This document shows positions 11,747-21,262 of a stretch of DNA of 33,306 nucleotides, piece after piece. The translations under genes were made by a program, and so were the position numbers. Source of the DNA: Arthrobacter sp. H20 (GTDB lineage: Bacteria; Actinomycetota; Actinomycetes; Actinomycetales; Micrococcaceae); assembly GCF_000520515.1 (NCBI RefSeq), contig NZ_KI914713.1, forward strand, positions 53,129 to 86,434, read 5' to 3'. The notes beneath the pieces were generated by a model. It saw only the letters and a list, made by a program, of their open reading frames with translations, ran no database searches and was not told the DNA's origin. Positions within the stretch are counted from its first letter, which is position 1. Each line of letters opens with the position of its first letter.

Positions 11747-12163
11747 CTACAGCCCGAGTCGCGGCGCTTCGATCGCCGGGCAGGTGTCCATAACGACGGC
11801 GAGGCCAGCTGATGCCGCGCGGGCGGCAGCCGCCTCATCGATCACACCGAGCTGCAGCCAGACCGCCTTTGCCCCCACCTCGATGGCCTGATCCACTACC
11901 GCGCCCACCTTCGACGAATTCACAAAACAGTCGACAACGTCGATAGTTCCTGGGATGTCGTCCAACCGCCGGTACCCGGTCCGACCGTGAACCTCGTCGC
12001 CCTTGAGGCTGACCGGGATCACCTCCATCCCGAGGTGATCAATCAAGAACCTGGAGACCCCGAGCGCCGCGCGTCGGGGGTTATTGGAGAGCCCGACCAC
12101 CGCCCAGCGGGCGGGCGTGGTGAGGAGTGTGCGGATTACTTCAGGATCGTTGCTTTGTGACAT
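11747..12163 (-). CDS. CoA-binding domain protein (YccU-like)
   Basis: A stand-alone Rossmann-type CoA-binding domain of 138 residues. The nucleotide-loop segment is WAVVGLSNNPRRAALGVSRFL, followed by VIPVSLKGDEVHGR, the IDVVDCFVNSSKVGAVVDQAIEVGAKAVWLQLG block and VVMDTCPAIE, all typical of the succinyl-CoA-ligase-alpha-like YccU family. Small members bind CoA or acyl-CoA, but their role is unclear. It is transcribed away from the first SAM riboswitch, and a second family member ends the sfnG-metY unit at 20759-21262. The ATG at 12163 is preceded by GAAAGGTGCG. Confidence 0.88.
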   Translation of the reverse strand: MSQSNDPEVIRTLLTTPARWAVVGLSNNPRRAALGVSRFLIDHLGMEVIPVSLKGDEVHGRTGYRRLDDIPGTIDVVDCFVNSSKVGAVVDQAIEVGAKAVWLQLGVIDEAAAARAASAGLAVVMDTCPAIEAPRLGL

Positions 12164-12209: not shown

Positions 12210-12239
12210 TTGCGATGAACCCGTGAACAGGAGTTTAGT
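12210..12239 (+). promoter_or_regulatory. Candidate promoter of the first SAM-riboswitch unit
   Basis: TTGCGA (12210-12215) and TTTAGT (12234-12239) are 18 bases apart. Transcription would start about 7 bases downstream, just before the P1 stem of the riboswitch. The second riboswitch has a similarly placed pair, which supports the call. Confidence 0.4.
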
Positions 12240-12246
12240 GGTTCTT

Positions 12247-12380
12247 GACCATCCCGAGCGGCCGAGAGACCTGGATCGATGAAGCCGCAGCAACCCTGGC
12301 CATCCGGCTGACCACCTGCAGAGCATGAGTGCAGCGGAAAACCGGTGACAGTAGGGTGCTACCGCCAGGACCGATGGAGA
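12247..12380 (+). promoter_or_regulatory. SAM riboswitch (SAM-I clan; possibly SAM-I/IV variant) before the ABC-acs unit
   Basis: The conserved core is present: GAGCGG, GAGAGA, then GATGAAGCCGCAGCAACC, a variable hairpin region (12296-12345) and AGGGTGCTA followed by GCCAGG. P1 is CCATC (12249-12253) with GATGG (12373-12377). CCTGGC after GCAACC pairs with GCCAGG. Only about 3 bases separate GCCAGG from the P1 3' strand, leaving no room for the P4 hairpin of classical SAM-I. The ribosome binding site GGAG (12376-12379) overlaps the P1 3' strand, 8 bases before the ATG at 12388, which suggests control of translation start. The class call is from memory of consensus; Rfam models would decide it. 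Confidence 0.87.
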
Positions 12381-12387
12381 TAATCCT

Positions 12388-13200
12388 ATGACCGTTCTGG
12401 CATCACCACGCTCAACTGCTGCTGTGCCCACCAAGCAGGCTCTCAATGTGACCTTCGCAGGACTGGGCCGCAGCTTCGGATCGGGCTCCGACCGGCGCAC
12501 GGTCCTGCGGGACATCAACTTCGAGGTCAGCGCCGGCGAAGTCCTCGCTATCCTAGGCCCCAGCGGCTGCGGAAAATCAACGCTGCTCAGAGCGGCCGCA
12601 GGACTGGATGCACTCAACGCCGGGTCAGTACTGATTGACGGTATCGAAGTCCACGGCATCAACGAACGGTGCGCAGTGGCGTTTCAGGAACCACGGCTCC
12701 TGCCCTGGCACACGCTGCAGGCCAACGTGGCCATCGGCTTACCGAAAGCGTCCAGCGCCAGCGAGGGCAAGACCAAGGTAGCTGAGCTGCTACACCTCGT
12801 GGAGCTCGACGCGTTCGCCAAACACCGGCCGCGGGAAGTGTCAGGGGGAATGGCGCAGCGTGCCTCTCTGGCACGTGCACTGGCGCGCAACCCAGGGGTC
12901 CTCATTCTCGACGAACCGTTCGGAGCGCTCGACGCCCTGACCCGGATCAAAATGCAGGACTTGCTCCTCGATATCCACCGTGCCCAGCCCACCACCGTCC
13001 TGCTCGTGACCCACGATGTCGACGAAGCGCTGCAACTGGCAGACCGCATCATCGTCCTCGGTTCCGATGCGGACTTGCCCGGCGCGACGATCACCGAGGT
13101 GCTCACCGTTCCGGGTCAGCGCCCCCGCAGCCGCAACTCAGCCGATCTGGGCCGAATGCGCAGCTCCCTGCTGACCTCCCTTGGGGTTACTGGCCACTAG
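12388..13200 (+). CDS. ABC transporter ATP-binding protein, sulfonate/nitrate/taurine type (SsuB-like)
   Basis: Energises import with the binding protein and permease that follow. 270 residues. Walker A is GPSGCGKST (about 52-60), the Q-loop is VAFQEPRLLPWHTL, the signature is VSGGMAQRASLARAL, Walker B is VLILDEPFGALD and the switch is THDVDEAL. QEPRLLPW and DEPFGALDALTR are characteristic of the SsuB/TauB/NrtD subfamily. The gene is directly behind a SAM riboswitch whose P1 stem includes its ribosome binding site, so it should be expressed when SAM or methionine is low. That points to organosulfur as cargo rather than nitrate. A 147-base gap precedes the binding-protein gene. Confidence 0.9.
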   Translation: MTVLASPRSTAAVPTKQALNVTFAGLGRSFGSGSDRRTVLRDINFEVSAGEVLAILGPSGCGKSTLLRAAAGLDALNAGSVLIDGIEVHGINERCAVAFQEPRLLPWHTLQANVAIGLPKASSASEGKTKVAELLHLVELDAFAKHRPREVSGGMAQRASLARALARNPGVLILDEPFGALDALTRIKMQDLLLDIHRAQPTTVLLVTHDVDEALQLADRIIVLGSDADLPGATITEVLTVPGQRPRSRNSADLGRMRSSLLTSLGVTGH

Positions 13201-13347
13201 GCCAGGCCAGCTCCTGCCCTTCGGGCTCCCCCGCATCCCCCTGCCCTGCTGCACCTGCGGCCTCCGTGCCGTCCGCGTCGCCCACCCAACGCATTCTTCC
13301 TCTCACGCAAGTCGTCCTGAACGATTTGTCTCACCCTAAGGACCCTC

Positions 13348-14391
13348 ATGACCAGCCACCCCGCCTCCCGCTCCCGCCGCCCAGTCCTGTGCGTCGCTTC
13401 ACTCGCCGCCGTCGTCTCCCTTTCGCTGACGGGCTGCATGGCCGGTGAGGACGCCGCCGGACCAGCTGGCGCCGCTGGCGGAGAGCTGAACATCGACTTC
13501 GCCACCTATAACCCGCTGAGCCTGGTAATCAAGGAGCAGGGGTGGCTGGAGGATGAGCTGGCTGACCAGAACGTGACAGTCAACTGGATCCAATCCGCCG
13601 GGTCCAACAAGGCCAACGAGGCACTGCGGGCGGGAGCCATCGACGTCGGCTCCACAGCCGGTTCAGCAGCTCTGCTTGCCCGGTCCAACGGCTCGCCCAT
13701 CAAGACGATCGACATCTACTCCCAGCCGGAATGGGCTGCCCTGGTGACCAACGAAAACTCCGACATCCAGGAGATCGAAGACCTGCGCGGCAAGTCCATT
13801 GCCGCGACCAAAGGCACCGACCCGTACTTTTTCCTGCTGCAGGCCCTCGAAGCCGGCGGAATCGATCCGTCCGAGGTGACAGTTCAGAACCTGCAGCACG
13901 CCGACGGGCGGGCTGCCCTGGCGAACGGGTCGGTCGACGCCTGGTCCGGCCTCGACCCGATCATGGCTTCAGCCGAGCAGGACGGCGCCACCCTTTTCTT
14001 CAGGGACATCGACTTCAACACCTACGGTTTCCTGAACGCCACCGAGGACTTCCTCGAGGAAAGTCCCGAGCTGGCCCAGACCGTCGTGAACGCCTATGAA
14101 AAGGCCCGTGAATGGGCCACTGAAAACCCTGAGGAGACGGCCGAGATCCTCGCCGAGGTGGCAGGGATCGACGTCGAGATCGCCAATGCGGTCATCATTG
14201 ACCGCACCAACCTGGACATCGATCCAGCCCCGGGCGAGGCACAGCGGGCTGTGCTGGAGAAGATCGGCCCGGTATTCGTCGAATCCGGTGACGTCTCCAG
14301 CCAGGAACAAATTGACGAAGCGCTGGACACCCTCTTTGACGACTCCCTGGTGAGTAACGCGGATCCCACGGCTATTGAGGCCTCCTCATGA
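13348..14391 (+). CDS. Sulfonate-type ABC transporter substrate-binding lipoprotein (SsuA-like)
   Basis: Captures the substrate outside the membrane. 347 residues; the ATG at 13348 has AAGGA 5 bases upstream. The lipoprotein signal ends in SLTGC (Cys about residue 31). The mature part fits the periplasmic binding fold of SsuA/TauA proteins: FATYNPLSLVIKEQGWLEDEL, the AGAIDVGSTAGSAAL block, IYSQPEWAALV, the DLRGKSIAATKGTDPYFFLLQALEAGG hinge region and VDAWSGLDPIMASAEQDG. The exact ligand (alkanesulfonate, methanesulfonate, sulfoacetate or another) is not readable. The stop overlaps the permease ATG (ATGA). Confidence 0.88.
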   Translation: MTSHPASRSRRPVLCVASLAAVVSLSLTGCMAGEDAAGPAGAAGGELNIDFATYNPLSLVIKEQGWLEDELADQNVTVNWIQSAGSNKANEALRAGAIDVGSTAGSAALLARSNGSPIKTIDIYSQPEWAALVTNENSDIQEIEDLRGKSIAATKGTDPYFFLLQALEAGGIDPSEVTVQNLQHADGRAALANGSVDAWSGLDPIMASAEQDGATLFFRDIDFNTYGFLNATEDFLEESPELAQTVVNAYEKAREWATENPEETAEILAEVAGIDVEIANAVIIDRTNLDIDPAPGEAQRAVLEKIGPVFVESGDVSSQEQIDEALDTLFDDSLVSNADPTAIEASS

Positions 14392-15290
14392 CGGGCGTCG
14401 GGAATCCGTACGTTGACGAGAAGAGTGTTAGTGGCGTGGACACGGCCGGAGGCTCTACCGTGGCAACTGCTGGGCCTGCACAGCCGCCGCCTAGCCGTGG
14501 CGGACCGGCGCATGGATGGTCCCACACCGGCCTGCTGCAGCGCAGCTGGGTGCGTCTGCTCCTCGGGTTGATCCTCCCCGGGCTGATTCTCACCCTCTGG
14601 CAGTTGAACTCGGTAATCGGCCCGTTCAGCGCCGTCCAGGTCCCACCACCCGCGGCGGTATTCAACGCGGCCGTCGAGCTGATCCAGCGTGGTGAACTAT
14701 GGACCCACATCGGTATCTCCACCCAACGGGTGCTCCTTGGTTTTACCTTCGGCGCAACCCTTGGCCTGACCATCGGGTCGCTGGTGGGACTGTCGCGGAT
14801 CGCCGACGCCCTGCTGGCGCCGACCATCGGCGCGCTGCGGGCCGTCCCATCGCTGGCCTGGGTGCCACTGCTGATCCTGTGGATGAAGATCGGTGAAGAT
14901 TCGAAGGTCACGCTGATCCTCATTGGCGCTTTCTTCCCAGTCTTCACCACCGTGTACCTCGCCCTGCGCCATGTTGACCGGAACCTGGTGGAGGCTGGCA
15001 GGGCGTTCGGGCTGAACGGATTCAAGCTGTTGACCACAGTGCAGCTCCCTGCGGTGATTCCCTCGGTCTTCTCCGGTCTGCGGCTGGGCCTCGCCCAGGC
15101 GTGGCTGTTCCTGGTCGCCGCCGAACTCATTGCCTCCTCGCTGGGCCTCGGGTATCTGCTCACCGATTCGCAGTACAACGGGCGGGTAGACAGGATCTTC
15201 CTCGCGATCATCCTGCTGGCAGTCATCGGCAAGAGCACCGACGCTCTTTTGGGGGTCGCTGAGAAGTGGGCGGTGCGACGATGGACCTGA
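14388..15290 (+). CDS. Sulfonate-type ABC transporter permease (SsuC-like)
   Basis: A membrane subunit of 300 residues with a ~60-residue Gly/Pro-rich cytoplasmic start, then about six helices. The EAA loop that docks the ATPase reads VEAGRAFGLNGFKLLTTVQLPAVIPSVFSGLRLGLAQAW, a good match to the binding-protein-dependent permease family. GALRAVPSLAWVPLLILWMKIGE is a typical SsuC/NrtB/TauC segment. The start ATG 14388 overlaps the binding-protein stop, and the 3' end overlaps the acetyl-CoA synthetase start by 10 bases. The four genes therefore form one tightly coupled unit. Confidence 0.9.
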   Translation: MTGVGNPYVDEKSVSGVDTAGGSTVATAGPAQPPPSRGGPAHGWSHTGLLQRSWVRLLLGLILPGLILTLWQLNSVIGPFSAVQVPPPAAVFNAAVELIQRGELWTHIGISTQRVLLGFTFGATLGLTIGSLVGLSRIADALLAPTIGALRAVPSLAWVPLLILWMKIGEDSKVTLILIGAFFPVFTTVYLALRHVDRNLVEAGRAFGLNGFKLLTTVQLPAVIPSVFSGLRLGLAQAWLFLVAAELIASSLGLGYLLTDSQYNGRVDRIFLAIILLAVIGKSTDALLGVAEKWAVRRWT

Positions 15291-17248
15291 GCCTGCAGGA
15301 AGCCGGCCAGCTCACCGACGCCAACCGGTTGGCGTTCTGGGATCGGGCGGCACACCGGCTCGAGTGGGCCACCGAATGGTCAACAGTTCACAGCTTCGAA
15401 CCAGCCCGGCCGGTCACCGACGGTGCCGACGGCGACCTCACCGTCCCAACGATCGAGTGGTTCGCCGGCGGCCGCCTCAACGTGGCCTACAACTGCGTTG
15501 ACCGGCATGTCGACGCAGGGTTCGGCGACAAGGTAGCCCTGCACTTCGAGGGCGAGCCAGGCGACCGACGGACAGTCACCTACATCCAATTACAGGCAGA
15601 GGTGTCCCGCGCCGCCAACGCGCTGCTGAATCTCGGGATCGACCAGGGCGACCGGGTGGTCATCTACCTACCCGTCCTAGTGGAAACCATAGTCATCACC
15701 CTGGCCTGCGCCCGGATCGGCGCGGTCCATTCACTGGTGTTCGGGGGGTTCTCGGCAGAAGCCCTCCGGTTCCGGGTAGAAGACACCGGCGCGAAATTAC
15801 TGGTCACCACCGACGGGCAGTACCGCCGGGGTACAGCGGTGCCCGTCAAGGCCAACGCTGACAAAGCGGTATCCGGGCAGAACAGCATTGAGCACGTCCT
15901 CGTGGTCCGCCGCACCGGCGACGACGTCCAATGGACCGATGGCCGCGATGTCTGGTGGCATGAAGCGGTTGGTGCCGCTTCCCCGCACCACGTCCCCGAG
16001 GCGTTCGACGCCGAGACCCCTCTGTTCATCATGTATACCTCCGGCACCACCGGTAAACCAAAGGGCCTGGTGCACACCTCCGGTGGGTACCTGACCCAGG
16101 CGTCGTGGAGTTTTGAGTACCTGTTCAGCCACCCTGAGCCTGCCCGGCGGGAGCGGGATGTCCACTGGTGCACCGCTGACCTCGCGTGGGTGACCGCCCA
16201 TACCTACGAGATCTACGGGCCGCTCTCCAACGGTGCCACCCAGGTGATCTTCGAGGGCACGCCCAACACGCCGCACCCGGGACGGCACTTCGAAATCATC
16301 GAACGCTACCGCGTGACCAGCTACTACACGGCGCCCACCCTTATCCGGTCGCTGATGGGCTGGTTCCCTGACGGCGTGCCGGCTGGCTACGACATCTCCT
16401 CGATCCGGCTGCTCGGAACAGTCGGTGAGGCGACCAACCCGGAGGCCTGGCGGTGGTTCAGGGAACACCTCGGGTCGGGTACAGCGCCCGTCGTCGACAC
16501 CTGGTGGCAGTCCGAAACCGGTGCCACCATCCTGTCCCCGCGCCCCACCGACACCTCCTTCAAGCCGGGCTGCGCCTCCCGCGCCCTCCCAGGAGTCAGT
16601 ACCCGAATAGTTGACGACGCCGGTGAGCCGGTACCATCCGGCGAACAGGGACTGATCGTGGTCGACCGGACCGGACCGGCCATGGCACGAACAGTCTGGG
16701 GAGACCCGCAGCGCTACCTGGATTCCTACTGGCGAAAGTTTGCGGCGCAGGGCTGGTTCCTGGCCGGGGACGGCGCACGGCACGACGAGGACGGCGACAC
16801 GTGGATCCTCGGGCGGGTCGACGACGTCCTCAATGTGTCTGGTCACAGGCTCTCCACCATTGAGGTCGAATCCGCGTTAGTGGCTCACCCATGGGTAGTC
16901 GAGGCGGGCGTCTGCCCGGTCGCTGACCCGCGGACCGGGCACGCCATTGCCGCCTTCGTCGTGCTCTCCGGCCCATCCGGTCCTGGCGACCTTCCCCAGG
17001 ACGAGGTGACCCGGGTCCTTCGGGACCACGTCGCGACGGTGATCGGGCCGATCGCCAGGCCCGCCGCCGTCGTCGTCGTCGAAGACGTCCCCAAAACCCG
17101 TTCCGGCAAGATCATGCGGCGGCTCCTGACCCAACTGTTCGAGGACAAGACACTGGGTGACACCACGTCCCTGCAGAACGAGGCCTGCGTGCCCGGAATC
17201 GCTGCGGCCCTCGCCGCGCGGACACCACCCGCCCCAGCCCTTCGCTGA
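15281..17248 (+). CDS. acs: Acetate--CoA ligase (acetyl-CoA synthetase) family
   Basis: An AMP-forming acyl-CoA synthetase of 655 residues from ATG 15281 (GTG 15266 is an alternative), close to standard Acs length. It activates a short carboxylate with ATP and CoA. ATP-binding P-loop MYTSGTTGKPKGL, WCTADLAWVTAHTY, LLGTVGEATNPEAW, DTWWQSETGATI, GDGARHDEDG, GRVDDVLNVSGHRL and the catalytic-lysine end PKTRSGKIMRR are all present. The acetate-pocket Val and Thr (WVT), Val (TVGE) and the size-limiting Trp pair (TWWQ) are kept, which favours acetate. Differences from enteric Acs are VTA for VTG, GEA for GEP and TGA for TGG. Unusually, it overlaps an ABC permease gene and lies behind a SAM riboswitch. 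The PKTRSGK lysine is the usual site of regulatory acetylation. Confidence 0.9.
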   Translation: MDLSLQEAGQLTDANRLAFWDRAAHRLEWATEWSTVHSFEPARPVTDGADGDLTVPTIEWFAGGRLNVAYNCVDRHVDAGFGDKVALHFEGEPGDRRTVTYIQLQAEVSRAANALLNLGIDQGDRVVIYLPVLVETIVITLACARIGAVHSLVFGGFSAEALRFRVEDTGAKLLVTTDGQYRRGTAVPVKANADKAVSGQNSIEHVLVVRRTGDDVQWTDGRDVWWHEAVGAASPHHVPEAFDAETPLFIMYTSGTTGKPKGLVHTSGGYLTQASWSFEYLFSHPEPARRERDVHWCTADLAWVTAHTYEIYGPLSNGATQVIFEGTPNTPHPGRHFEIIERYRVTSYYTAPTLIRSLMGWFPDGVPAGYDISSIRLLGTVGEATNPEAWRWFREHLGSGTAPVVDTWWQSETGATILSPRPTDTSFKPGCASRALPGVSTRIVDDAGEPVPSGEQGLIVVDRTGPAMARTVWGDPQRYLDSYWRKFAAQGWFLAGDGARHDEDGDTWILGRVDDVLNVSGHRLSTIEVESALVAHPWVVEAGVCPVADPRTGHAIAAFVVLSGPSGPGDLPQDEVTRVLRDHVATVIGPIARPAAVVVVEDVPKTRSGKIMRRLLTQLFEDKTLGDTTSLQNEACVPGIAAALAARTPPAPALR

Positions 17249-17365
17249 CTGTCGCAGGGGTCCTGTGGCGACCGAAGGGCCTCGTTCCGGGGGTGCCACC
17301 TGGCCCACCTCACCGTCCGGGCGGCGTGTTTGTCCGTCCTGGCGCGTGTGTGGTCAGGTAAGACT

Positions 17366-18061
17366 ATGAGCGTTGACAAGGATGAACAGAAGCGGCGCGA
17401 GGATCGACTGGCCATTACCCGCATAGTGCTTCGGCCCACGGGAACCCCGCTACCGCTGGCGTTCATGGCCTTGGCAGTGGCAACCATCGGGGTCAGCGCA
17501 TTGCAGGTAGGACTGATTCCGGCCGACGAGGAACTCATCATCACGCTGGCGATCCTGGTTCTGACTGTGCCGCTGCAGCTGTTTTCCTCCATCATCGGCT
17601 TTGGCGCCCGCGATCCCATCGCAGGCACCGGGATGGCAATGGTTGCCGGCACGTGGGCCGTTATTGCAGTGGCAATGCTGGCCACTCCGGACGGGGCGTC
17701 GATTCCCAGCCTGGGGGTCCTCCTGATTACCTCGGCGGCAACCATGGTCGCTCCCGTGCTGGGCGCCAAAGGCAAGCTGGTTGCCGCAGCCGTGCTGACC
17801 GGGTCCGCACTGCGCTTCGCCATGACCGGCGTCGCCCACCTGACCGGTGCCGATGGGTGGGAAATGGCCGCCGGACTCTTCGGCTTTGCCCTCGGTGCCT
17901 TGGCAATCTACGCTGCGATCGGTTTCGAGACTGAAGAGGCTGGCGGACCGATCCAGTTCCCACTCCTGCGCCGCGGAACAGGAACTAAACCGCTGGTCGA
18001 TGACATGGGCGAACAAGTCGAAGGCATAGCCCGGGAGGCAGGCGTCCGCCGACAGCTGTGA
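17366..18061 (+). CDS. Six-helix membrane protein, possibly GPR1/FUN34/YaaH (acetate transporter) related
   Basis: 231 residues from ATG 17366. Six hydrophobic helices are visible, at about residues 33-55, 60-80, 88-110, 115-135, 140-160 and 168-190. The first opens with a PTGTPLPLAFMALA motif and the last reads GFALGALAIYAAIGFETEE. This resembles SatP/YaaH acetate transporters, which start NPAPLGL and end GASAIYLAMGEVLNE, with the same six-helix size. The similarity is by eye and distant. Its position 117 bases after acs would suit acetate or short-acid transport. The ribosome binding site is weak (GGTAAG). If the family call fails, it is an unnamed integral membrane protein. Confidence 0.55.
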   Translation: MSVDKDEQKRREDRLAITRIVLRPTGTPLPLAFMALAVATIGVSALQVGLIPADEELIITLAILVLTVPLQLFSSIIGFGARDPIAGTGMAMVAGTWAVIAVAMLATPDGASIPSLGVLLITSAATMVAPVLGAKGKLVAAAVLTGSALRFAMTGVAHLTGADGWEMAAGLFGFALGALAIYAAIGFETEEAGGPIQFPLLRRGTGTKPLVDDMGEQVEGIAREAGVRRQL

Positions 18062-18100
18062 CCATTCCGGTGGTCGGACGCTGCGCCTCAACTCGTTTCC

Positions 18101-18117
18101 CTGCCCCAGAGGGGCAG
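18101..18117 (+). terminator. Short perfect stem-loop after the six-helix gene
   Basis: CTGCCCC (18101-18107) and GGGGCAG (18111-18117) form a 7-bp stem with a 3-base loop. No T-run follows. It lies 40 bases after the stop at 18061 and before the second riboswitch promoter, a sensible place to separate two transcripts. Confidence 0.4.
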
Positions 18118-18140
18118 ACTCGCAACGGAGAGCAACAATG

Positions 18141-18169
18141 TTGGCTCACCGGGATAGGACTGCCACACT
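18141..18169 (+). promoter_or_regulatory. Candidate promoter of the second SAM-riboswitch unit
   Basis: TTGGCT (18141-18146) and CACACT (18164-18169) are 17 bases apart. A start near 18176 would place the transcript's 5' end at the base of riboswitch stem P1, the same geometry as at 12210-12249. Confidence 0.4.
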
Positions 18170-18175
18170 GGGGGT

Positions 18176-18280
18176 GACCATCCCGAGCGGTACGAGAGAT
18201 CTGGCTCATTGACACCGCAGCAACCCTGGCCACTGCCTACAGCAGTGACATTAGGGTGCTAATGCCAGGCACGATGGAGG
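18176..18280 (+). promoter_or_regulatory. SAM riboswitch (SAM-I clan; possibly SAM-I/IV variant) before sfnG-metY
   Basis: A second copy of the element at 12247. Shared core strings are CCATCCCGAGCGG, CGAGAGA, CCGCAGCAACCCTGGCCA, AGGGTGCTA and GCCAGG. P1 is CCATC (18178-18182) with GATGG (18273-18277). Again only 3 bases lie between GCCAGG and P1, so there is no P4 hairpin. The variable hairpin is much shorter than in the first copy. The ribosome binding site GGAGG (18276-18280) overlaps P1 and is 5 bases from the sfnG ATG at 18286, which suggests translational control. Confidence 0.88.
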
Positions 18281-18285
18281 ATCGC

Positions 18286-19431
18286 ATGGCTATTGACCTT
18301 TCCCAACCCCTCAAGTTCGCCTACTGGGTGCCCAATGTGAGCGGTGGCCTGGTGGTGTCGACAATTGAGCAGCGCACCGGCTGGGACTTTGACTACAACA
18401 AGAAGCTCGCGCGCATCGCCGAGAACGCCGGTTTTGAGTACGCGCTCTCGCAGACCCGGTACGCGGCGTCCTACGGCGCTGACAAACAGCACGAGGCGAC
18501 AGCATTCTCGCTGGCCCTGCTCGGCGCGACCGAGAAGCTGAAGGTGATCGCCGCCGTCCACCCCGGCATGTGGCAGCCCGGCGTACTGGCCAAATTCATC
18601 ATCACCGCCGACCACATTTCAGGCGGGCGGGCTGCCGTGAACATTGTGTCGGGCTGGCTGAAGAGCGAGTTCTCCGGATTCGGATTGCCCTGGCTGGAGC
18701 ACGACGAACGGTACGTGCGGACCGAGGAGTTCATCCGGATCCTGCGCGGCCTCTGGACCGAGAAGAACTTCTCGCAGGCCGGCAAGTACTACAACATCAC
18801 CGACTTCACCCTCAACCCGCCGCCCGTTGACGTGCCGGGGCGGCCGCACCCGGAGATCTTCTTCGGCGGGAACTCGACCGCTGCGCAGGCAACCGCTGGC
18901 AGGGTGGCCGACTGGTACTTCTCGAATGGGAAGGATCTGGAAGGTTTCAAGGAGAACATCGCTGGTGTGCAGGCGTCAGCCGAAGAGGCGGGTCGGCACC
19001 CGCGATTCGGGCTCAACGGGTTCGTGATCGCCAGGGACACCGAAAAGGAAGCCCGCGAGACGCTCCGCGAAATCGTGGCCAAGGCGCACAAGCCCGCCGT
19101 CGAAGGGTTCCGCGGGGCAGTCCAGGAGGCCGGAGCCTCCACCCGGGACGGCAAGGGCATGTGGGCCGACTCGTCCTTCGAGGACCTGATCCAATACAAC
19201 GACGGGTTCAAGACGCAGCTCATCGGCACTCCTGAACAGATTGCCGAGCGCATCGTCGAGTACAAGAAGATCGGCGTGAACCTGATGCTGACCTGCTACC
19301 TACATTTCCAGGAGGAGGTCGAGGCATTCGGTAGGGACATCCTTCCCATCGTCCGCGAACTCGAAGCGGACCTCGCCCGTAAGCAGGGCCTAGATTTCAT
19401 TGTTGACGACCAGATTAAGGCAGGTGTCTGA
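18286..19431 (+). CDS. sfnG: Dimethyl sulfone monooxygenase SfnG (FMNH2-dependent, luciferase-like)
   Basis: Oxidises dimethyl sulfone to methanesulfinate using reduced flavin supplied by a separate reductase. 381 residues of luciferase-like TIM-barrel type. I recognise SfnG from KFAYWVPNVSGGLVVSTIEQ, FEYALSQTRYAASYGA, LKVIAAVHPGMWQPGV, VVSGWLKSEF (binding-site region NIVSGW), PWLEHDERYVRTEEFIRIL, PEIFFGGNS, FEDLIQYNDGFKTQLIGTPEQIAERI and HFQEEVEAFGRDILP. The start at 18286 (MAIDLSQP) is fixed by GGAGG 5 bases upstream and by family alignment; earlier in-frame ATGs lie inside the riboswitch. The stop overlaps the metY start by one base (TGATG). No flavin reductase gene (SfnF/SsuE type) is in the window. 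A related LLM sulfonate oxygenase is the alternative. Confidence 0.88.
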   Translation: MAIDLSQPLKFAYWVPNVSGGLVVSTIEQRTGWDFDYNKKLARIAENAGFEYALSQTRYAASYGADKQHEATAFSLALLGATEKLKVIAAVHPGMWQPGVLAKFIITADHISGGRAAVNIVSGWLKSEFSGFGLPWLEHDERYVRTEEFIRILRGLWTEKNFSQAGKYYNITDFTLNPPPVDVPGRPHPEIFFGGNSTAAQATAGRVADWYFSNGKDLEGFKENIAGVQASAEEAGRHPRFGLNGFVIARDTEKEARETLREIVAKAHKPAVEGFRGAVQEAGASTRDGKGMWADSSFEDLIQYNDGFKTQLIGTPEQIAERIVEYKKIGVNLMLTCYLHFQEEVEAFGRDILPIVRELEADLARKQGLDFIVDDQIKAGV

Positions 19432-20762
19432 TGGCTGACCGCAGCTTCGGTTTCCGCACGCGAGCTCTTCACGCGGGCGGCACCCCCGACTCGGCCCACG
19501 GGGCCCGGGCAGTACCCATTTACCAGACGACGTCCTTCGTCTTCAAGGACACGAACGACGCCGCCAACCTCTTCGCACTGCAGAAGTACGGCAATATCTA
19601 CTCACGAATCGGCAACCCAACTGTCGCAGCGTTCGAGGAGCGGATCGCCTCTCTCGAGGGCGGGATCGGGGCGGTGGCGACGGCGTCGGGGATGAGCGCC
19701 GAGTTCATCACCTTCGCAGCGTTGTGCCAGGCCGGGGACCACATTGTCGCCGCATCGCAGTTGTACGGTGGCACAGTCACTCAGCTCGACGTGACGCTCC
19801 GCCGGTTCGGCATCGACACAACCTTCGTGCCCGGCACTGACCCCGCCGATTATGCTGCTGCGATCCAGGACAACACCAAGGCCGTCTACGCTGAGGTGAT
19901 TGCCAACCCATCCGGCGAGATCGCTGACATTCAGGGGCTGGCAAAGATCGCCCACGACGCCGGAGTGCCGCTGATTATCGACTCCACCCTGAGCACTCCC
20001 TACCTCATCCGGCCGATCGAGTACGGGGCGGACATTGTGATCCACTCCGCCACGAAGTTCATCGGCGGACACGGGACTACCCTCGGCGGCGTCGTCGTCG
20101 AAAGCGGGAAGTTCAACTGGGGCAACGGCCGGTTCCCGACAATGACCGACCCCGTGCCCTCCTATGGCAACATCCAGTGGTGGGCCAACTTCGGCGAGTA
20201 CGGGTTCCTGACCAAGCTCCGCACCGAGCAACTGCGTGATATCGGCCCGTCGCTGTCACCCATGTCCGCCTTTCAGCTGCTGCAGGGCGTCGAAACACTA
20301 GCCCAACGACTCGACGAACACCTTTCCAACGCGCAGGCCGTGGCCGAATGGTTGGAGAACGATCAGCGGATTGAGTACGTCAACTACGCCGGACTCCCTT
20401 CGCATCGCCATTTTGAGCGGGCCGCCAAATATCTGCCACAGGGTCCGGGCGCGGTCTTCAGCTTCGGTGTGACGGGCGGCCGGGCAGCGGGGCAGAAATT
20501 CATCGAATCGCTGCAGCTAGCCTCGCATCTGGCGAACGTCGGTGATGCGCGCACGCTGGTCATCCACCCCAGTTCAACCACCCACCAGCAGCTCTCGGCT
20601 GAGCAGCTGGTCACCGCTGGCATCCCTGAGGACCTGGTGCGCATTTCGGTGGGGCTTGAGGACCTTGAGGACATCCTGTGGGACATTGACCAGGCGCTGG
20701 ACCTTGCCACCGCTCCCACCCTTGAAGCAACCCCCACTCCACATGAGGAAGTGACTGCATGA
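19431..20762 (+). CDS. metY: O-acetylhomoserine aminocarboxypropyltransferase (sulfhydrylase)
   Basis: A PLP enzyme of the Cys/Met metabolism family, 443 residues. It makes homocysteine from O-acetylhomoserine and sulfide, or methionine directly from methanethiol, releasing acetate. Family markers are FRTRALHAGGTPD, PIYQTTSFVF, YSRIGNPT, the PLP lysine in HSATKFIGGHGT, IIDSTLSTPYLIRPIEYGAD, and TLVIHPSSTTHQQLS followed by VRISVGLED at the C-terminus. The extra segment NWGNGRFPTMTDP is typical of MetY rather than MetB or MetC. It overlaps sfnG upstream and the CoA-binding gene downstream (ATGA). Control by the SAM riboswitch fits its place as a methionine-supply step. metX is not in the window. 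Confidence 0.94.
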   Translation: MADRSFGFRTRALHAGGTPDSAHGARAVPIYQTTSFVFKDTNDAANLFALQKYGNIYSRIGNPTVAAFEERIASLEGGIGAVATASGMSAEFITFAALCQAGDHIVAASQLYGGTVTQLDVTLRRFGIDTTFVPGTDPADYAAAIQDNTKAVYAEVIANPSGEIADIQGLAKIAHDAGVPLIIDSTLSTPYLIRPIEYGADIVIHSATKFIGGHGTTLGGVVVESGKFNWGNGRFPTMTDPVPSYGNIQWWANFGEYGFLTKLRTEQLRDIGPSLSPMSAFQLLQGVETLAQRLDEHLSNAQAVAEWLENDQRIEYVNYAGLPSHRHFERAAKYLPQGPGAVFSFGVTGGRAAGQKFIESLQLASHLANVGDARTLVIHPSSTTHQQLSAEQLVTAGIPEDLVRISVGLEDLEDILWDIDQALDLATAPTLEATPTPHEEVTA

Positions 20763-21262
20763 GCGCTGATCTGCAAACTGCACGGACCTGGGATGGCCCA
20801 TCCGCCCCGGAACGGCTTTCTCTCTTACGCAGCGCGAAGTCGGTCGCCATTGTGGGGGCATCCGACAAGCCGTCCCGTGCATCGTACTTCGTTGCGACCT
20901 ACCTGCAGTCGTCGGCTCCCTACCGGTTGTACTTCGTCAATCCGGTGGCCAAACAAATTCTGGGCCAACCCGTGTATGCGTCGCTCGCGGACCTGCCCGA
21001 GGTCCCCGACATTGTTGATGTCTTCCGGAAACACGATGACCTGCCCGGCGTTCTTGAGGAAACAACTGCGGTCGGCGCCAAGACGCTGTGGCTGCAGCTG
21101 GGATCCTGGCACGAGGGCGTGGCGCACGACGCCGAAGACGCCGGGCTGAACGTGGTGATGGATCGCTGTATCAAGATCGAGCACGCGCGGTTCCATGGCG
21201 GGCTCAACCTGGCCGGCTTCAACACGGGAGTGATTTCCTCCAAGCGTCAGGTCACGGCCTAA
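20759..21262 (+). CDS. CoA-binding domain protein coupled to metY
   Basis: A 167-residue YccU-like CoA-binding protein. Loop segment VAIVGASDKPSRASYFVATYL, LYFVNPVAKQILGQPVYASLADLPEVPDIVDVF, TTAVGAKTLWLQLGSWHEGVAHDAEDAGLNVVMDRCIKIEH and a C-terminal tail HGGLNLAGFNTGVISSKR are seen. The ATG overlaps the metY stop (ATGA), and such a protein next to metY is a recurring pairing in actinobacteria as far as I recall. Its partner role is unknown; CoA or acetyl-CoA sensing for O-acetylhomoserine synthesis is a possible but unproven reading. It is a paralogue of the gene at 11747-12163. Confidence 0.88.
   Translation: MSADLQTARTWDGPSAPERLSLLRSAKSVAIVGASDKPSRASYFVATYLQSSAPYRLYFVNPVAKQILGQPVYASLADLPEVPDIVDVFRKHDDLPGVLEETTAVGAKTLWLQLGSWHEGVAHDAEDAGLNVVMDRCIKIEHARFHGGLNLAGFNTGVISSKRQVTA

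Follow-up and report, generated by a model that had tools for sequence, protein, structure and literature searches.

Predicted SAM-I riboswitches over a gene island with a probable role in organic-sulfur scavenging and homocysteine synthesis in Arthrobacter

In a 33,306-nucleotide stretch of the Arthrobacter sp. H20 genome (contig NZ_KI914713.1, positions 53,129 to 86,434; hereafter the window), two leaders of the SAM-I (S-box) class of S-adenosylmethionine (SAM) riboswitches stand over the starts of two gene sets, ssuBAC-acs and sfnG-metY-CoA-binding, which form an island at positions 12210-21262. We read the island as a SAM-repressed locus that scavenges organic sulfur and builds homocysteine, and we put the probability of this reading at about 0.65. 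It is built on observed features, namely the aptamers and where they sit on ribosome sites, the families of the encoded proteins, the gene set being conserved in relatives, and the placing of the island acetyl-CoA synthetase (Acs) in a separate clade with an intact acetate pocket.

The first-pass annotation had placed a SAM-binding leader over the start of each unit and named the Rfam SAM models as a check. Both sites matched RF00162. Riboswitch 2 (18175-18280, +) scored 45.2 bits (E 2.3e-07), exceeding the gathering score of 44.4, and riboswitch 1 (12246-12380, +) scored 42.1 bits, with E-values of 1.3e-08 in a 241-base scan and 4.3e-08 in a genome-wide search; the latter found no RF00162 match elsewhere in the genome. 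The alignment of riboswitch 1 spans the full model, and from this alignment and its conserved position we read it as a SAM-I member despite the sub-gathering score. A model built from 20 aptamers of the genus gave it 102.8 bits, a circular value given that its own copy was in the model. Riboswitch 1 is of a long form, with an extended P3 arm and 135 bases in total; 25 of 30 ssuB-led leaders measure 165-174 bases.

Next, we counted pairs over 103 aptamers (102 distinct), in an alignment that was fitted to the tested structure. In these, 98.2% of the cells were paired, and the covariation score, the number of doubly changed cells and the number of pair types each exceeded all 500 shuffles, while six pairs were changed on both sides, a count that 80 of the 500 shuffles reached. 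All changes fell in P3 and a single P2 pair; the other P2 pairs and P1 were near-invariant and therefore yield no covariation signal either way. The RF00162 matches and the pair counts together ruled out chance or misread riboswitches.

Each aptamer ends within the Shine-Dalgarno site of the gene behind it, so SAM is expected to repress translation directly. The P1 3' arm of riboswitch 1, GATGGAGA, holds the ssuB Shine-Dalgarno site with the ATG 7 bases on, and that of riboswitch 2, GATGGAGG, holds the sfnG site with the ATG 5 bases on; in both leaders the arm follows GATGGAG(G/A). A ribosome-binding site (RBS) within the P1 3' arm and an adjacent start codon define the direct translational SAM-I platform, a switch type already in print. 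With the window included, 29 of 30 ssuB-led leaders had the RBS in the P1 3' arm and a start codon 4-9 bases past the aptamer, and the same spacing was found in 20 of 23 acs-led and 13 of 24 sfnG-led leaders. SAM binding and the direction of regulation are predictions from SAM-I biology and this geometry. For sfnG, the most likely start is ATG 18286 behind the ribosome site, in preference to an upstream GTG at 18256 that lies within the aptamer.

Probable promoters were recognized by eye before both aptamers: at 12210-12239 (+), directly 5' of riboswitch 1, with -35-like TTGCGA and -10-like TTTAGT, and at 18141-18169 (+), with -35-like TTGGCT and -10-like CACACT. A TAGT-type box occurred within 20 bases 5' of the aptamer in 18 of 30 ssuB-led leaders (one of which was not long enough to be read) and in 22 of 23 acs-led leaders, and CA(C/G)ACT at the same distance in 14 of 24 sfnG-led leaders. 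A generic scan for sigma-70 promoters and terminators returned nothing at either predicted leader promoter and gave no excess over shuffles.

The families assigned by NCBIfam and Pfam scans of the window's proteins agreed with the gene names proposed beforehand (ABC ATPase, binding protein, permease, acs, sfnG, metY and CoA-binding). The first unit consists of genes for an ssuB-like ABC ATPase (12388-13200, +; 270 aa; PF00005), an ssuA-like substrate-binding protein (13348-14391, +; 347 aa; SsuA_fam TIGR01728, a subfamily model, 213.6 bits against a cut-off of 163.5) whose nearest solved chain, 2x26, is an aliphatic sulphonates-binding protein, an ssuC-like permease (14388-15290, +; 300 aa; PF00528), and the island-type Acs (15266-17248, +; 660 aa, or 655 from ATG 15281; AcsA TIGR02188, 780.8 bits, cut-off 724.95). 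The second unit encodes SfnG of the dimethylsulfone monooxygenase family (18286-19431, +; 381 aa; TIGR04021, 624.6 bits, cut-off 382.95), MetY of the O-acetylhomoserine sulfhydrylase type (19431-20762, +; 443 aa; TIGR01326, 600 bits, cut-off 495.1) and a CoA_binding_2 protein (20759-21262, +; 167 aa; PF13380, 134.3 bits; solved chains 2duw and 1iuk). The nearest solved chain to SfnG, 8t0u, is an FMNH2-dependent dimethylsulfone monooxygenase (452 bits), and by homology SfnG would convert dimethyl sulfone to methanesulfinate. The metY product was the only match in the genome over the TIGR01326 cut-off, and its matches to solved chains 8erb, 7kb0 and 8sf5 had E <1e-140. The tight overlap described for both units holds for ssuA-ssuC-acs and for sfnG-metY-CoA-binding; ssuB and ssuA are separated by 147 bases.

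The gene-order search in relatives that the first-pass annotation had suggested covered 80 named loci, which were the best of 575 SfnG relatives and hence biased to sfnG carriers; several end at contig edges. The tally excluded tblastn hits below 45% of query length and those with less than 50% identity. The two nearest SfnG loci belonged to Arthrobacter spp. (95-96%). The island was conserved: sfnG was followed by metY, and metY by the CoA-binding gene, in 76 of 80 loci each; acs was present in 72, and ssuBAC occurred together with acs in 40. A riboswitch headed a unit in 60 of 80 loci, standing at ssuB in 29, at acs in 23 and at sfnG in 23, and 15 loci had leaders at both ssuB and sfnG, like the window. 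The idea of one SAM-sensing regulon was supported, with two leaders and conservation across Arthrobacter-like genera; its division into two units proved to be a feature of certain clades rather than of the island itself. Of the 80 loci, 53 have acs within 200 bases of sfnG; in 52 of these no riboswitch stands at sfnG, and the two genes probably form one operon. In two Tersicoccus loci (L092, L094) ssuBAC-acs is inverted and divergent from sfnG-metY, with the upstream CoA-binding gene between them, flanked by riboswitches on both sides. For 27 sfnG loci outside the window's family, flanks of at most 1.5 kb contained no match to metY or acs; the sample was 30 loci taken from the best of the 53 genomes, out of 394, in which a match occurred.

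Comparison within the genus showed that sfnG is not a fixed part of the set. Seven relatives without sfnG (G012, G015, G017, G031, G035, G036 and G037) keep ssuBAC-acs-metY and the CoA-binding gene, which makes sfnG an optional cassette; RF00162 precedes ssuB in six and metY in four of them, and every one of the seven has at least one match in the unit. As the best SsuD-model match in these genomes was at most 78 bits, where sfnG would score 135-164, sfnG seems to be missing genome-wide and not just from the cluster. Conversely, 23 loci have an ssuB-type leader before acs, with no ssuBAC found between. Over 82 core columns, and with no tree, class means of leader identity were 0.92 for ssuB versus acs leaders, 0.91 for sfnG (near) versus metY, and 0.88 for sfnG (near) versus ssuB. 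The window's two aptamers share 0.85 of core columns, within the 0.80-0.91 found for such pairs in 16 loci; a recent duplication of one leader inside the island was not supported. Read cautiously, these comparisons point to two leaders, to ssuBAC and sfnG being cassettes that are gained and lost, and to acs with metY as the lasting core.

RF00162 matches were common in these bacteria (present in 35 of 38 genomes of the genus and in 247 of 295 of the family), and the same aptamer family precedes other methionine genes in relatives (MetE-like, MetN/MetI-like and MetF-like), which further supports a single regulon. Four loci with a leader before a MetE-like gene were read (L048:15847-15948, L086:15862-15965, L084:897-1011 and L089:17981-18097); twelve further leaders were assigned to this class from position and ending only, with names given by eye, and the MetE-like gene gave weak methionine-synthase matches below cut-off. 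In L084, L087 and L091 the MetE-like leader lies approximately 1.3-1.4 kb 5' of the ssuB leader. In two loci (L061:5819-5908 (-) and L048:2093-2184 (-)) RF00162 stands before MetN/MetI-like genes, behind which lies an NtaA/DmoA-like luciferase-family monooxygenase, and five further leaders were assigned from position; this monooxygenase is a candidate for a second SAM-linked enzyme of carbon-sulfur (C-S) cleavage in relatives. One locus, with names by eye, was read with RF00162 before MetF-like and MetE-like genes. Leaders in relatives were also seen before a DmoA-like monooxygenase and before peptide/sugar-type binding proteins (names by eye).

The first-pass annotation had given acs no role. 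In a phylogenetic tree, 21 island copies from four families were split from 13 housekeeping copies by a 100/100 branch, with L107, L034 and the C42 row on long branches; judged by this tree, the island Acs is a separate lineage, a paralogue of the housekeeping enzyme. The second Acs of the window's genome, interrupted by masked bases, showed 53.8% identity to the island copy over 444 residues and 63.6% over 129, and the island Acs of Cellulomonas showed 65.0% to the window copy over 645 residues. Island-type Acs, defined by a score band of our own choice (757-797 bits), was found in 33 of 37 genus genomes, and an RF00162 match lies within 10 kb of it in 30 of the 33. The residues at V310, T311, V386 and W414 of chain 2p20, which we take to be those of the acetate pocket, are kept in 72, 72, 73 and 73 of 73 island copies, respectively. 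MetY frees one acetate per O-acetylhomoserine, and MetX spends one acetyl-CoA to make O-acetylhomoserine. Because MetY releases acetate and MetX consumes acetyl-CoA, an Acs beside MetY would close the acetyl loop, and most likely the island Acs recycles the acetate freed by MetY. One MetX-like gene is present in the genome, cut by masked bases, with no piece above its cut-off.

Taken together, these features suggest the following scheme. When SAM is plentiful, each aptamer would shut P1 over the Shine-Dalgarno site of the following gene, so that translation of ssuB (with ssuA, ssuC and acs) and of sfnG (with metY and the CoA-binding gene) would be held down; when SAM is low, the ribosome sites would open. 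The ABC importer would then take up an organic sulfur acid, probably a sulfonate, SfnG would oxidize dimethyl sulfone or a related sulfone or sulfonate, and the sulfur would arrive at MetY as sulfide or methanethiol. MetY would join it to O-acetylhomoserine, yielding homocysteine or methionine and acetate, and the dedicated Acs would convert the acetate into the acetyl-CoA that MetX needs for more O-acetylhomoserine. Of these steps, we infer the imported substrate, the C-S cleavage and the acetate recycling. A more specific version, in which one SAM signal drives both a closed acetyl cycle (MetX, MetY and the dedicated Acs) and sulfur release without MsuD, SsuD or TauD, by SfnG alone or by an enzyme still to be found, is offered tentatively, and we would not bet on it at even odds.

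Observations on the enzymes, the importer, Acs and the leaders weigh against the reading of a SAM-repressed scavenging locus. Regarding the enzymes, the chain from organic sulfur to MetY that had been proposed earlier was left without a known enzyme for its last C-S cleavage, because no protein in 38 genus genomes exceeded the SsuD cut-off (TIGR03565, 518) and TauD was not found in 37. The best SsuD-model match in the 38 genomes, outside the sfnG places beside riboswitches, was 99.1 bits. The absence being genus-wide, assembly loss is unlikely, and in the window's own genome, which is 94.6% complete with masked stretches, no MsuD or SsuD was found to complete the route from dimethyl sulfone to sulfite. 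SfnG-type enzymes require a flavin reductase (PMC8234197), and none was found among the scanned island proteins. Five PF08028 (MsuC) matches occur in the genome; when four of the open reading frames (ORFs; L163-L166) were scanned, three looked like acyl-CoA dehydrogenases, while L164 gave a weak DszC/SfnB-like match, by which an MsuC candidate was neither shown nor excluded.

The last step would fall to SfnG, if its range extends beyond dimethyl sulfone, or else to a different enzyme. If SfnG were the desulfonating enzyme for SsuBAC-like import, instead of or besides being a dimethylsulfone monooxygenase, the route would be complete without SsuD, MsuD or TauD. This would fit the genus-wide absence of SsuD-type proteins and TauD and a genome in which the luciferase-like monooxygenases found numbered just two, namely SfnG and one of MsnO8 type; moreover, an SsuA-type importer would scarcely be required for a molecule as small as dimethyl sulfone, which carries no charge. 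However, SfnG lies far over its own family cut-off, the dimethylsulfone monooxygenase chain that it matches at 452 bits is well ahead of chains named alkanesulfonate monooxygenase (at most 162 bits), the sfnG-less relatives retain the importer, and the genome is incomplete and partly masked. We consider a desulfonating SfnG unlikely, at perhaps one chance in a handful or slightly better.

Regarding the importer, the ATPase and the permease missed the equivalog cut-offs for sulfonate systems (190.4 against 395 for the ATPase, with the nitrate/sulfonate ATPase models below their cut-offs, and 179.5 bits for the SsuC model against 347), and its substrate is therefore not fixed by the family models; it would be an organic sulfur acid, probably a sulfonate. 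Island-type Acs was missing from four of 37 genus genomes (G010, G011, G013 and G034), and three of these carry a 163-base RF00162 match resembling ssuB leaders. The occurrence of acs together with the sulfonate-type importer in 40 of 80 loci would also suit an Acs that activates an imported sulfur-bearing acid, such as sulfoacetate or a mercapto-acid, in place of acetate, and acyl-CoA ligases for sulfoacetate are known elsewhere. This is improbable for an enzyme that passes the TIGR02188 acetate-CoA ligase cut-off with its acetate-pocket residues unchanged, W414 included, that follows a riboswitch in 23 loci with no ssuBAC found between, and that remains with metY in the absence of sfnG.

Regarding the leaders, SAM regulation of this island is predicted from sequence alone, riboswitch 1 stands 2.3 bits below the gathering score, and single-strand fold energies did not differ significantly from shuffles (z -1.04 and -0.19). 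The fold energy alone being unremarkable, the case for the riboswitches rests on homology and conservation. Of the 24 sfnG-led leaders, the other 11 have no start that is clearly beside the aptamer; their SfnG match begins 37-152 bases on, and most of them must work through other means. Among the sfnG aptamers of L070, L075, L084, L087 and L091-L095, which have the SfnG match 75-152 bases on, several end in GATGGAGAgagcgcaagc, and another expression platform is likely there.

No riboswitch was found at a unit in 20 of 80 loci, comprising 14 from Brachybacterium, Georgenia, Cellulomonas and Brevibacterium and six from Arthrobacter, two of the latter on contigs that end before the head. Twelve of the 14 keep the same genes, or part of them on one short contig, and the gene set thus does not need SAM-I control. 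The genus aptamer model found nothing in any of the 14, and another RNA class was not indicated by Rfam, which gave only tRNAs in the seven scanned. Rfam likewise found no riboswitch in L052, L057, L068 and L073, nor in 14 short loci from the class search. An apparently decayed leader in L065 (6709-6847; 32.5 bits) is followed by intact acs-sfnG-metY. In L068 and L073, inspection by eye showed nothing more than fragments resembling a promoter and P1 directly 5' of acs, with acs-sfnG-metY intact. A degenerate aptamer before the likewise intact acs-sfnG-metY of L057 (6906-7024), suggested by position and eye only, was rejected: its score of 11.6 bits (E 0.48) was surpassed at three unrelated places in the same search. 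That the leaders are relics or weak switches and that a protein regulator of sulfur starvation really controls the island could be argued from such riboswitch-free families, from the low score in L065 and from the fragments in L068 and L073, but the near-invariance of P1 and P2 in 102 distinct aptamers, the conserved start-codon spacing and the further methionine genes behind the same aptamer family leave it little chance.

Two further genes adjoin the island. A second CoA_binding_2 gene (11747-12163, -; 138 aa; PF13380, 119.9 bits) is the divergent neighbour of riboswitch 1 and has a relative beside the island in 52 of 80 loci. Between acs and riboswitch 2 lies an ORF with no assigned family (17366-18061, +; no Pfam or NCBIfam match for the frame from 17330; hydrophobic by eye), which has a relative in only one of 80 loci (L032) and is outside the conserved island. 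Elsewhere, group II intron pieces (RF02001 and RF01998) lie just 3' of the CoA-binding gene in L052 (8604-8915), and downstream of 13740 in L070 a long frame behind the leader contains regular, CRISPR-array-like repeats.

The island suggests a coupling of organic-sulfur use to SAM in Arthrobacter-like soil bacteria. Borodina reportedly described growth of Arthrobacter on dimethylsulfone in 2000, to go by the title of that reference. The analysis also assigns a tentative role to a second acetyl-CoA synthetase, one that would be annotated as a housekeeping enzyme, and marks a missing C-S cleavage step that can now be sought. Loci that keep the genes with leaders seemingly lacking the aptamer provide ready comparisons for measuring the effect of the switch.

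The first-pass annotation knew of no description of this combination, and none of riboswitch-ssuBAC-acs/sfnG-metY was found in a literature search that left out most subscription papers and regulon databases. Its parts resemble several known systems. The island shares an SsuA-type binding protein, an SsuC-type permease and an ABC ATPase with the E. coli ssu genes, and differs in that ssuD is absent and acs comes after the permease gene. Island Acs copies share family, acetate pocket and the PKTRSGK motif with AMP-forming acetyl-CoA synthetase, but differ as a separate clade beside metY. With SAM-I riboswitches that sequester the ribosome site directly, the leaders share the aptamer core and the RBS in the P1 3' side; they precede ssuBAC-acs and sfnG-metY, targets that are not named in the accessible parts of the surveys. 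In those parts, a 2005 survey saw no conserved RNA structure upstream of the methionine operons among its Actinobacteria (PMC1262725), and the actinobacterial groups listed by a 2013 survey were Corynebacteriaceae and Mycobacteriaceae (PMC3766115). In Pseudomonas, SfnG, MsuC and MsuD convert dimethyl sulfone to sulfite, and the sfn/msu set includes MsuE (PMC8234197); SfnG is common to both systems, whereas here no SsuD/MsuD-type protein exceeded the cut-off and sfnG is joined to metY, and often to acs, behind a SAM-I leader. In the full text on Rhodococcus qingshengii IGTS8, neither "acetyl-CoA synth" nor "acetate" begins a word (PMC8557817). That paper describes a similar response to an organic sulfur source, with MetY increased, SfnG abundant and sulfonate transporters enriched, but the IGTS8 genes lie apart by locus number (PMC8557817). 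The island is a predicted new regulon assembled from known parts.

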